From: Armatimonadota bacterium
GTDB lineage: Bacteria > Bacteroidota > Ignavibacteria > OLB7
Assembly: GCA_020850315.1 (NCBI GenBank)
Contig: JADZEY010000128.1
Coordinates: forward strand, 1 to 51,398
DNA: 51,398 nt
Reading direction: 5' to 3'
Shown: in pieces, positions 9,842 to 50,578 of the stretch
How the letters are laid out: each line of letters opens with the position of its first letter
Position numbering within the stretch: position 1 is the stretch's first letter
Notes under the pieces: generated by a model
The model's input: only the letters and a program-made list of their open reading frames with translations
What the model was told of the DNA's origin: nothing
Databases searched by the model: none
Translations under genes and position numbers: made by a program

Positions 9842-9889
9842 CTGGCTGGAATTTGGTGATTGCAGTGTCCCTGTATTCCACCAGAACAC

Positions 9890-10069
9890 ACCCTCCGCAT
9901 TCGTGTGCTCGCCGCCAGCCCTCACCCCCCGCCCTCTCCCAAACGGGTGATACTACTGGTTCCACTCCATTGGTCGGGTGGGAGAGGGAGCCAAAACCGA
10001 AGAAGAAAGGAGAATTGAAGAAAACCACTGAACGGGGAAGTGTTCACTATCTCACATTCTGTGTACGAT
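9890..10069 (+). mobile_element. MITE-like repeat, copy 1
   Basis: This 180-base non-coding element fills most of the 227-base gap between two convergent genes. It aligns end to end with the reverse complement of copy 2 (40028-40230). The shared core includes GCCAGCCCTCACCCC, CGCCCTCTCCCAAA, GGGTGAT, a CACTCCATTGGTCGGGTGGG block and GAGAGGGAGCC. The ends are degenerate versions of the copy 2 terminal repeats: ACCCTCCGCA on the left and TGTGTACGAT on the right. The right end abuts the stop codon of the minus-strand chelatase-like gene. It encodes no transposase, so any mobility would need a helper elsewhere. Confidence 0.7.
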
Positions 10070-12003
10070 CAGGGGGTGAGTTTTGGAAGGAAAAAATACT
10101 CACCTCCAAGTTGCTCGGCTAACCGGACGGCATCGGATTGCTGGCTGAACTGCTGGCGGGTATCAATCACCACCGCTCGCAAACCAGCGCGGCGGTATGC
10201 CTCGCCAATTTTCTGCATCTCTTCCTGCACAACTTTCCGGCGTACCTCGCGGATCATTGCTGCGGTTCCTGCTTCCAGCGGAACGTTTGCGCGCCCATCG
10301 GTCAGGATCACCACCAGCGTTTGCTCGTTTCCCCGAACCCGTTCCCGCTCGGCCACTGCAAGTGCCATCACCAACGATGACCCCAACGGCGTTCCCCCAC
10401 CAGTTGGCATTCGGTCAAGCGAACGCTTGGCGCGCTCGATGGAGCTTGTGGGGGGAAGCAGTAACTCCGCTTGGCTTCCCCGGAACCCAATCATCGCCAC
10501 GCGGTCGCGGCTGATGTAGGCGGTTTGCAAAATTCTTCCCGCCGCCCCTTTTGCCTCGCGAATCCGATTGGTTGCCATGGATCCGCTGCTATCAACACAG
10601 AAAATGAAGAGCGTCCCGGCTCGCTCGGAAAATTCTTTCACCCGCAGATCCGCCTTGCGGACAATCACCCCAGACTTCCCCTTGTTTTTTCTGGCACGCT
10701 GGTGTGGGGCCGCTGCGCGAATCGTTGCCAGAATATCAATCCGTCTTCCCCCCAGATCCGCTTCGGTTGTGCCGATGTGCCGCCCGCGAGTTAGCTGCTT
10801 GCGGCTTCCCCGCTTTCCCGATTCCAGGCCAAGCGCTTGCTCGAAAAACTGCTGCAACGGCGGGATCGGTTGATGAAAATCTAACGGGTCGAACAACTGC
10901 TCGGCCCCGGTTTGCGATTCCCCGATGATGGTTGCGCGTTCGGTGGGTTGCTCATCTTGCCGGCCTTCGGCTTGGCTCCCTTCCGCTTCGGTCTCTGCGT
11001 GGTTGCTGTTCGGTTGGTTCCCAGGCTGGACCCCATCTTCCTGGGGTGAAGGCTCCTCTGGCTCCGGTTGCTGGGGGCTTGGCGCGGTTGGGTTGGGAAT
11101 GTTCTGGGTTCGGGGGGCAAGGATTGTGGCAATCGCAAAGCTCAGGTCAAGCTCCTCAATCATCAATGCCCCCCGCAAGGCTGCGTGTGCACGCGCAGCC
11201 TTTGCCGCAAAAATCAGCCCACGCTCCCCCTTGACCTGCAATGCCGAGGCAGCCTCTATCAGTTCCTGGAGTGCAAGGTCGCTAACCCGAATCTGTGACC
11301 AGCAAGCGCGGGCATTCAGCACACGCTCGGCCATCCGTTGTTGGTGGCTGGAATACTGCTGAACGATTGCTTGCGGCGATGCCGAAAACGCTTCCCGAAG
11401 CCGAAGCAGCCCCGCCAAATGTTCCGGCGGAAGCCGCCGTTCTTGGGGGATCAAGAAAGGGATTTTATCGGCAATGGATTGGGGGATTGGACGCTCGCTG
11501 GGGATTGCCGTGGCAAGCAACGTGAAGCGTGCTGCGAACTGCTGGCCCAAACCTTCACGCTGGCAATGCACCGTTCCGGAATCCAAGGATTGGCCAATGG
11601 TTGTTGCGGTTGTGGAATCCACCAGCGGCAGATTGTCAACCACAAGGATACCTCCATCGGCTGCCGAAAGCACCCCGGGTTGCAGCACTGGCTTCCCTTG
11701 CGTGATGGTTGCTTCAAGGTCAATTCCGCCAACCAGACGATCCTGTGTGATCCCCAGCGGAAGATGAACAACGGGTGTGTGCGGGTCAATATGTTCCCGA
11801 ACAAAGTGGCCAAAACTGGATAGCACTGCCGACTTCCCAACGCCGACCGCACCCGACAGCACCACACCGCACAGCGTGGGATCCACCAGTGTGCAAAGCA
11901 ACGCCCGCCGCGCCATGCCGTAGCCGATAATAGCGCTGAACGGAAGATGCCCTGATTGATATTCCCCCCCAATTTGGGGATTGGATTGGCTGCGAAAATT
12001 CAC
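10069..12003 (-). CDS. Chelatase-like AAA+/VWA protein (BchD/CobT type)
   Basis: The product is about 644 residues with the fused architecture of magnesium/cobalt chelatase subunits. Counted from GTG 12003, there is an AAA+ domain with Walker A GAVGVGKS (about 51-58), then a proline/acidic linker (about 300-360), then a VWA domain with an intact metal site DSSGS (about 471-475) and GGGTPLG. The Walker B region reads GGILVVDNLPLVD: the usual catalytic Glu is Asn, as in BchD-type subunits with weak or no ATPase. No porphyrin or cobalamin gene is nearby, so metal insertion is not established; MoxR-like chaperoning is an alternative. There is no ATG between residue 1 of the longest frame (12246) and the Walker region, so the GTG is a best guess. 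Confidence 0.78.
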   Translation of the reverse strand: MNFRSQSNPQIGGEYQSGHLPFSAIIGYGMARRALLCTLVDPTLCGVVLSGAVGVGKSAVLSSFGHFVREHIDPHTPVVHLPLGITQDRLVGGIDLEATITQGKPVLQPGVLSAADGGILVVDNLPLVDSTTATTIGQSLDSGTVHCQREGLGQQFAARFTLLATAIPSERPIPQSIADKIPFLIPQERRLPPEHLAGLLRLREAFSASPQAIVQQYSSHQQRMAERVLNARACWSQIRVSDLALQELIEAASALQVKGERGLIFAAKAARAHAALRGALMIEELDLSFAIATILAPRTQNIPNPTAPSPQQPEPEEPSPQEDGVQPGNQPNSNHAETEAEGSQAEGRQDEQPTERATIIGESQTGAEQLFDPLDFHQPIPPLQQFFEQALGLESGKRGSRKQLTRGRHIGTTEADLGGRRIDILATIRAAAPHQRARKNKGKSGVIVRKADLRVKEFSERAGTLFIFCVDSSGSMATNRIREAKGAAGRILQTAYISRDRVAMIGFRGSQAELLLPPTSSIERAKRSLDRMPTGGGTPLGSSLVMALAVAERERVRGNEQTLVVILTDGRANVPLEAGTAAMIREVRRKVVQEEMQKIGEAYRRAGLRAVVIDTRQQFSQQSDAVRLAEQLGGEYFFLPKLTP

Positions 12004-38148: not shown

Positions 38149-39954
38149 ATGCACCATCTACAACGCCTGCTCCCCTACATCGGCAAGTACCGTGGGCGGC
38201 TGATTGCCGGGTTGATCTTCATCACCATCAGCAACGTCTTCTCGGTTGCCATTCCACGCTTCATTGGCCAAACCATTGACAAATTAGGGAAGGGCCTTAC
38301 CTCGGGGGAATTGGCTGAACAAGCCTTCATCATTGTTGGGCTTTCCATCGGCAGCGGCATCTTCCTGTACCTTACCCGCCAGACGATTATCGTGCTGTCG
38401 CGGTTGGTGGAGTACGACCTTCGGAACGACTTCCTGAAGCACGTCCAGATGCTTCCGATGGATCACTTCAACAATACCCCAACCGGCGACACCATGGCAC
38501 TTGCCACCAACGACATCTCCGCCGTGCGTGAGTTCGTTGGCCCCGCGCTGATGTATGCCAGCAACACCATCACCACACTGCTGTTTGCCCTTACGATGAT
38601 GCTCACCTTGTCGGTGAAAATTACCCTGCTGGCGTTGCTTCCGCTTCCGTTGGTTAGCTACACCGTCTATCGGTTGGGGAAGCGGATTCATGGGCTTTCC
38701 ATTGCTGTGCAATCCCAGTATGCGGACCTTACTTCCAACGCCCAGGAGAATCTTTCCGGGGTGCGTGTGGTGCGGGCATACGTGCGCGAAAAATACGCCA
38801 TTGGGGTGTTCAGTGCCATGAGCGAAGGGTACCGCCGCAAGAACCTGGAGCGGGTCCGTGCCGAGCAGCTGATGATGCCCGCAATGATGGTGCTGATTGG
38901 CCTTTCGCAGCTGATTGTGCTTGGCGTTGGCGGGTGGGAAGTGATCTACAGCGACACCACCATTGGCGACATCGTCCAGTTCTTCTCCTACATCTCCCAG
39001 CTGATTTGGCCGGTGATTGCCGTGGGGTGGATCACCAACCTTGTGCAACGCGCCGCTGCCTCGATGGGGCGGCTGAACCGCATTTTTGAACTGGAGCCGG
39101 AAGTTGCCCAAACGCCCCGCGCTACCGTTACCACAGCCGTAGATGCTGGGGTAGCCGGCAGCAATGGTTTGGCAGAAGGGAAGGGGAGTGATGGAAAAGT
39201 GATCGCCGGAAAAATTGAGTTCCGCAATGTCTGGTTCCAGTACCGCCCGGGGCTGCCGTTTGTGCTGAAGAACCTCAGCTTCACGGTACAGCCTGGCCAG
39301 ACGTTGGCGATTATCGGCTCCACTGGCTCCGGCAAAACCACTATCGTCAATCTGCTTGCACGGTTGTACGAGGCCACACAAGGGGAGATATTGATTGACG
39401 ACCGCCCCATCAGCCAGTTCGGTGCCGACGAACTGCGGACGCAGATCGGTGTGGTGGCGCAGGAGACGTTCCTGTTCAGCGACACGATTGCCGGGAACAT
39501 CCGTTTTGGCCGCCGCGACGCAACCGACCAGCAGATGGTGCGCGCTGCCGACATCGCCCAACTTTCGGAGAACATCAACCGATTCCCTGAAGGCTACCAG
39601 ACGATGGTTGGAGAGCGGGGCATCACCTTATCGGGGGGGCAGAAGCAGCGCACAAGCATTGCCCGCGCCCTGCTTCGCCAGCCACAAATTTTGATGCTGG
39701 ACGATGCCCTCTCGGCAGTGGATACCGAAACCGAAGAGCAAATTTTGCGCGGACTTCGGGAGGTGATGCGCTTGCGGACCTCCATCCTGATTGCCCACCG
39801 AATTAGCACCGTCAAGGAAGCCGATCAGATACTGGTGATGGACGAAGGGGAGATAATCGAGCAAGGAACCCACGACGAACTTCTTGCAATCCATGGCGAA
39901 TATTACAGCCTCTACCAACGGCAACTGCTGGAGCAGGCGTTGGAGTCATTGTAA
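38149..39954 (+). CDS. ABC exporter half-transporter with atypical Walker B
   Basis: This is a 601-residue fused membrane-ATPase exporter half of the MsbA/LmrA/BmrC type. Six N-terminal helices form the transmembrane domain. The nucleotide-binding domain has Walker A GSTGSGKT from residue 390, the signature LSGGQKQRTSIARALL, and Walker B ILMLDDALSAVD. The position normally occupied by the catalytic Glu is Asp519, a substitution typical of one half of heterodimeric exporters (BmrC/TM287 class). The expected partner is not adjacent in this window. A low-complexity Ala/Gly-rich insert (around VDAGVAGSNGLAEGKG) joins the two domains. The substrate (lipid, drug or peptide) is unknown. Confidence 0.9.
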   Translation: MHHLQRLLPYIGKYRGRLIAGLIFITISNVFSVAIPRFIGQTIDKLGKGLTSGELAEQAFIIVGLSIGSGIFLYLTRQTIIVLSRLVEYDLRNDFLKHVQMLPMDHFNNTPTGDTMALATNDISAVREFVGPALMYASNTITTLLFALTMMLTLSVKITLLALLPLPLVSYTVYRLGKRIHGLSIAVQSQYADLTSNAQENLSGVRVVRAYVREKYAIGVFSAMSEGYRRKNLERVRAEQLMMPAMMVLIGLSQLIVLGVGGWEVIYSDTTIGDIVQFFSYISQLIWPVIAVGWITNLVQRAAASMGRLNRIFELEPEVAQTPRATVTTAVDAGVAGSNGLAEGKGSDGKVIAGKIEFRNVWFQYRPGLPFVLKNLSFTVQPGQTLAIIGSTGSGKTTIVNLLARLYEATQGEILIDDRPISQFGADELRTQIGVVAQETFLFSDTIAGNIRFGRRDATDQQMVRAADIAQLSENINRFPEGYQTMVGERGITLSGGQKQRTSIARALLRQPQILMLDDALSAVDTETEEQILRGLREVMRLRTSILIAHRISTVKEADQILVMDEGEIIEQGTHDELLAIHGEYYSLYQRQLLEQALESL

Positions 39955-39968
39955 CTCACCTTACGCAA

Positions 39969-40023
39969 GGTCAGTGGTCAGTTGAAAAGAGGGTCATTAG
40001 TCATTGGTCATTGGTCATTAGTC
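39969..40023. repeat. Two period-7 tandem repeats
   Basis: Two GGTCAGT heptamers (39969-39982) are the reverse complement of the ACTGACC unit seen at 20129. They are followed by four units GTCATTA, GTCATTG, GTCATTG, GTCATTA (39993-40020). The block lies directly against the left end of MITE-like copy 2. Just before it, 39955-39974 reads CTCACCTTACGCAAGGTCAG, which looks like the two ends of that element joined. Confidence 0.7.
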
Positions 40024-40027
40024 CCTC

Positions 40028-40230
40028 ACCTTACGCAGAGTTTGGATGGTGAGGACTTGCTGGCTCGGTGGCTTGCTTCGATGCTCTTCTTCTCTTCGGC
40101 GTTGGCTCCCTCTCCCACCCGACCAATGGAGTGAAGCAGTAGCATCACCCATTTGGGAGAGGGCGTGCCGATAGGATCGGCATCTTCGAGGGGTGAGGGC
40201 TGGCAGCGAACGAGAGCAGGTGCGTAAGGT
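40028..40230 (-). mobile_element. MITE-like repeat, copy 2 (best preserved)
   Basis: This is a 203-base non-coding element bounded by perfect 10-base terminal inverted repeats: ACCTTACGCA (40028-40037) and TGCGTAAGGT (40221-40230). It is in opposite orientation to copies 1 and 3. Its left 75 bases match the reverse complement of copy 3 at over 85 percent by eye; its middle and right part match copy 1. It contains no coding frame. It occupies most of the 496-base gap between the ABC exporter and the first VIT/VWA gene. I could not identify a target-site duplication. Confidence 0.75.
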
Positions 40231-40326
40231 CAGATTGTAAGCGAGCAGAGTGCGCGGTAAGCTGCACGGTGAAGAACATACTTGGTCAAACAAGCCGCCC
40301 ACAGCAGATACGTTGTGGGCGATTTA

Positions 40327-40344
40327 TTTTTTTTGGGGGGGGGG
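40327..40344. promoter_or_regulatory. T8-G10 homopolymer tract upstream of VIT/VWA gene
   Basis: Eight T (40327-40334) are followed at once by ten G (40335-40344), about 107 bases before the start of the first VIT/VWA gene and therefore in its leader or promoter region. Tracts of this length slip during replication and can vary expression of surface genes in other bacteria; that role is inferred here. Confidence 0.55.
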
Positions 40345-50387: not shown

Positions 50388-50408
50388 GGTGAAGCTGTGA
50401 GGTGGTGA

Positions 50409-50578
50409 ACCTTACTGGATGTGGGGGGCAATGCTTCGGTGTTCCACCGGACATCGCCCTCCACTCATGCTGGGCCCCGTTGAAGTATCCCGCTCATACT
50501 GAAGCCAAAGAGAAGAAGAGCATCGAAGCAAGCCACCGACCGGCAAGTCTTCACTATCCAAACTCTGCGTAAGGTGAG
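50409..50578 (+). mobile_element. MITE-like repeat, copy 3 (diverged)
   Basis: This is a 170-base copy ending in TGCGTAAGGT (50566-50575). The right 75 bases (from GCCAAAGAGAAGAAGAGCAT onward) match the reverse complement of copy 2 closely; the left half is eroded and begins with a degenerate ACCTTAC end at 50409. It occupies the 204-base gap between bshC and the convergent small outer-membrane protein gene, which starts just 14 bases beyond it. Confidence 0.65.

Follow-up and report, generated by a model that had tools for sequence, protein, structure and literature searches.

Structure and borders of the element

The window (the whole 51,398-nucleotide stretch analysed here) carries an ABC transporter ORF of 601 aa (38149–39954) and, beginning right after its stop codon, a 279-bp MITE on the + strand (39955–40233), a composite (S+H) of a heptamer-array module and a hairpin module. 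The features of the element are the following:

39948–39954, no strand: left target-site duplication ATTGTAA; its last three bases (TAA, 39952–39954) serve as stop codon for the ABC transporter ORF that lies upstream
39955–40233, + strand: complete 279-bp MITE, with both 13-bp terminal inverted repeats, the heptamer-array module and the hairpin module
39955–39967, + strand: outer left terminal inverted repeat CTCACCTTACGCA
39968–40024, − strand: S module, heptamer arrays (GGTCAGT / TCATTAG-TCATTGG) around AAAGAGGG
40025–40037, + strand: internal copy of the terminal repeat, CTCACCTTACGCA, the left end of the H unit and the left border proposed at first
40038–40220, − strand: H module, GC-rich imperfect palindrome CCCTCTCCC...GGGAGAGGG plus flanking arms
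40221–40233, − strand: right terminal inverted repeat TGCGTAAGGTCAG
40234–40240, no strand: right target-site duplication ATTGTAA

The first-pass annotation of this DNA had described a MITE-like element at 40028–40230 with 10-base inverted ends. These ten bases are indeed exact at 40028–40037 and 40221–40230, but the repeat is really 13 bp long (CTSACCTTACGCA) and is found in this form at both ends of the element. The left border had been placed at the internal copy of the repeat; the true element extends from 39955 to 40233, because the ATTGTAA copies, which are identical at 7/7 positions, stand outside the second CTCACCTTACGCA at 39955–39967.

A terminator-like hairpin is found 3′ of the MITE, at 40296–40321, and is likely the terminator of the ABC transporter gene. 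Prior to the insertion this hairpin would have stood about 60 bases past the stop codon, and it now lies about 280 bases further away, so that 279 nt of folded sequence separate the stop codon from the likely terminator. The MITE, inserted at the 3′ end of the gene, likely has no present role. About 100 bases past it, at 40327–40344, a run of eight T is directly followed by ten G.

Two other stretches of the window had been named as copies. All three do have sequence in common, as claimed, and these two are decayed members:

50403–50578, − strand: degraded T+H composite with a perfect end at 50566–50578 followed by TGAGTAA; the left end is decayed and its boundary (about 50403) approximate
9842–10071, + strand: old degraded T+H composite with no intact end and approximate borders; positions 10059–10071 (TGTGTACGATCAG) differ from the terminal repeat by 3 mismatches

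A family with common ends and several interiors

We then consider the window's own genome (G000; 4.24 Mb, 138 contigs). A search with the 203-base copy, the check proposed at first pass, returned 64 matches at about 45 places, far more than three. Exact CTSACCTTACGC ends number 130, and the reversed-motif control gave 0; the fear that only three copies with inconsistent ends exist did not materialise. Pairing of opposite ends yields MITEs of 114–446 bp, short, non-coding and multicopy, with terminal inverted repeats and flanking duplications of a fixed 7 bp. Among 90 distinct end pairs, the flanks are identical at 7/7 positions in 23 (0.25 expected) and at 6/7 in 20 (1.9 expected), i.e., at least 6/7 in 43 pairs against about 2 expected, the expectations being taken from shifted registers. 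Half of the end pairs have no matching duplication; many of these are old copies or pairs internal to a composite. The duplicated sequence follows the palindromic motif T(T/G)A(C/G)T(A/C)A. A preference for insertion at stop codons was considered and rejected, as 13 of 43 duplications overlap stops compared with 26 of 100 unoccupied target motifs, with no enrichment. Orthologous empty sites were not located in the sister species (G001).

The family is modular: the unrelated interiors comprise a GC-rich hairpin, two palindromic repeats and heptamer arrays. Module mapping in this genome distinguishes no fewer than four types of sequence lying between these ends or next to them:

H: hairpin CCCTCTCCC...GGGAGAGGG; 176-bp units, 93–97% identical among themselves
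D: contains GTCATTGC...GAAGCAATCTCGCGG
T: contains TTCGACAGGCTCAGGACAGG
S: heptamer arrays around CCTCTTTGCAAC, adjoining H, D or T units

The initial idea of a single family is thus right for the ends, but the interiors are several and unrelated rather than one similar sequence. In the sister species, the H core occurs in about 23 copies, adjoining T- and D-like sequence and heptamers, and only three terminal-repeat sites are present. Since the H core is repeated there with so few ends, the interiors are for the most part host-genus repeats, lying between these ends in the lineage of the window's genome. We also observed, in this same genome, clusters in which H and T repeats alternate and terminal repeats are absent (L042–L045). 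Furthermore, a phage-like viral contig (IMGVR_UViG_3300037851_001505; L219:9808–9950) bears an element of 143 bp that shares these ends, has TGAGTAA as its duplication and contains a CCCTCTCCC...GGGAGAGGG hairpin.

Insertion sequences with the same ends in related genomes

The 13-bp end is present, with a patchy distribution, in 42 of the 391 genomes of the class, reaching at most 61 copies outside the window's genome. Judging only by how the closest IS carriers are named, this class is probably Ignavibacteria. In these other genomes the ends bound short elements with 7-bp duplications of the motif TTANTAA, and the duplications are exact in 18 of 27 MITE pairs. The first-pass annotation had also suggested a search for an insertion sequence (IS) sharing the ends, and such elements were found in relatives, with the same ends and the same duplication length. 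In genome G172, an intact IS of 1.19 kb (L229:2156–3341) has the ends CTCACATTACGCA / TGCGTAAGGTGAG and a 361-aa ORF; eight contigs of this genome break off some 130 bases into this IS, whose start in them is CTCACCTTACGCA, as is usual for a repeated IS in short-read assemblies. The transposase belongs to NCBIfam NF049921 (transpos_IS701_2), scoring 325 bits against a cut-off of 250, and fails the classical IS701 family (NF033540; 81.8 bits, cut-off 150). Classical IS701 elements make a 4-bp target duplication; here the duplication is of 7 bp.

Relatives of this IS701_2 transposase occur in named genomes of Ignavibacteria, Hymenobacter, Sulfurimonas, Methylococcales, Pseudanabaena, Chloroflexi and nanoarchaea. 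Both ends match CTSAYSTTACG in 39 IS701_2 elements from many phyla, 15 of which have exact 7-bp duplications and none (0/39) exact duplications of 4–6 bp; in several phyla the IS701_2 ends are identical to the 13-bp end of the MITEs. Moreover, two MITEs of genome G285 retain right-end sequence of the IS, which ties the MITEs directly to it. Some IS701_2 copies lie in contigs attributed to MAGs of archaea (Nanohalarchaeota, Aenigmatarchaeota; L271, L273, L274, L335), three of them with CTCACCTTACGCA ends, reflecting either transfer or a binning error.

Overall, the IS701_2 group (NF049921, IS4/IS701 superfamily) and the window MITE share the 13-bp ends CTSACCTTACGCA (CTSATGTTACGCA in other members) and a 7-bp duplication at a palindromic, TTANTAA-like target. 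On the other hand, the IS701_2 elements are 1.05–1.3 kb long and encode a transposase of about 360 aa, whereas the window MITE is 279 bp, non-coding and of unrelated interior. The MITEs therefore form a new family of a known IS group; no published account of the end sequence or of IS701-derived MITEs was found in the literature searched.

The autonomous elements that match these ends, present in G172 and other relatives, have no intact counterpart in the window's genome, where searches with PF01609 (DDE_Tnp_1), the G172 protein and NF049921 revealed no intact IS701_2 transposase. The DDE_Tnp_1 profile has zero matches, and the best IS701_2 match is the sole relic of an IS701_2-like transposase (38.9 bits; C9:2928–3224, L249). 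Viral contigs were also free of a helper transposase, and the MITE-rich genomes G147, G110, G357 and G039 likewise have no intact IS701_2 gene. As only a short relic is left, the MITEs seem to be orphans, although draft assemblies can lose a repeated IS; the helper would have been lost from this genome or be absent from its assembly. No IS-like interior beyond the 13-bp ends was found in this genome, and descent by internal deletion finds no support there.

Origin of the element

Taking together the ends, the duplications, the number of copies, the IS of relatives that matches them and the several interiors behind the same ends, the 279-bp element is very probably a MITE, a non-autonomous DNA transposon for which a DDE transposase of the NCBIfam IS701_2 group acted in trans, and the MITE reading of the first-pass annotation is supported by the high copy number, the consistent 13-bp inverted ends, the 7-bp duplications and the end-sharing IS. 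Movement by the IS701_2 enzyme is deduced from sequence. The enzyme would recognise the 13-bp CTSACCTTACGCA, cutting at the outer C, and would insert the element into a 7-bp target T(T/G)ANT(A/C)A, which would then be duplicated. Interiors may have been acquired where a host repeat ended up with one of these ends on either side. Composites such as S+H probably arose when one unit inserted into a heptamer array beside another end, the outermost ends of the composite probably being used together thereafter.

Alternatively, the ends could be those of a different DDE transposase family, one that went unseen and arrived by convergence at this end and this 7-bp duplication. The lack of an intact IS701_2 gene in the window's genome, as in the four MITE-rich genomes named above, would fit this proposal; we consider it very unlikely, given that IS701_2 elements of several phyla have an identical 13-bp end and that IS701_2 end sequence is found inside the G285 MITEs.

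It is highly improbable that we are dealing with palindromes of the REP/BIME type, spread by a Y1 (TnpA-REP) transposase, with the conserved 80-bp hairpin core as the mobile unit and incidental ends. Such a scheme agrees with the roughly 23 occurrences of the H core alone, without these ends, in the sister species and with the end-less clusters in the window's genome. However, wholly different sequences have the same ends and the same 7-bp duplications, and to our knowledge Y1 enzymes make no target duplication; the presence of 7-bp duplications sets the element apart from REP/BIME. The H hairpin may spread in a way of its own, which would leave the 279-bp element unexplained.

Finally, a conserved structured RNA, which the first-pass annotation had named as another source of the similarity, or a regulatory 3′-UTR element, either of them under selection, has almost no likelihood: the RNA does fold better than shuffled sequences (z −2.9) and copies lie near gene 3′ ends, but palindromic MITEs fold by construction, no Rfam covariance model matches in the window, stops overlap the duplication no more often (13/43) than they do unoccupied motifs (26/100), and the copies occur in both orientations with unrelated interiors.

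Heptamer arrays as probable insertion targets

The MITE family described here, most likely of the IS701_2 group, is found beside tandem heptamers. The two-unit TGACYAA pattern has 130 matches in the window's genome and about 135 in the sister species (L362, L370 and others). All the ends that adjoin a tandem heptamer (17/17) are in register with the array, as expected because the target motif fits only one phase of TGACYAA. In one case, a D-type MITE lies inside a heptamer array, while a related array that shares its right flank has no MITE. These observations are explained most simply if the arrays serve as targets. That they are mere footprints of MITEs was rejected, as the sister species is equally rich in arrays and has only 3 ends; genomes of Thiocystis, Pseudanabaena and Thiotrichales with IS701_2 relatives showed few arrays.

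Direct repeats of the heptamer TAACTGA form intergenic 7-bp arrays in Beggiatoaceae, cyanobacteria and Bacteroidetes, and transposon excision has been named as one possibility for them (PMC4679880). They resemble the arrays described here in being 7-bp and intergenic, and TAACTGA fits the target motif TNANTNA, although evidence joining them to these ends was not found. A more speculative and rather doubtful proposal is that one IS701_2-type transposase made several unrelated host repeat families, among them palindromes, hairpins and heptamer arrays, into mobile cargo, with the target-matching arrays serving as in-register landing pads, maybe built by repeated insertion and excision.

Significance

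A parallel among other bacterial MITEs is MITEAba12, a homogeneous family of about 113 bp mobilised by the coresident helper ISAba12 (PMC6382973). Like the family described here, it is short and non-coding, and its ends and duplication length match those of an IS; in contrast, many interiors share the ends in the present family and its helper was not found. Ends, duplication length and target are now defined for a transposon group spread across many phyla, and the patchy MITE families of one bacterial class are linked to the IS701_2 group. Since the same short ends carry very different host repeats, a similarity search with a single copy misses most of the family. In-register insertion (17/17) offers a testable lead on the unexplained heptamer repeats: if true, the reading of the arrays as landing pads shaped by insertion and excision would account for the intergenic 7-bp repeats in the literature whose origin is unknown.
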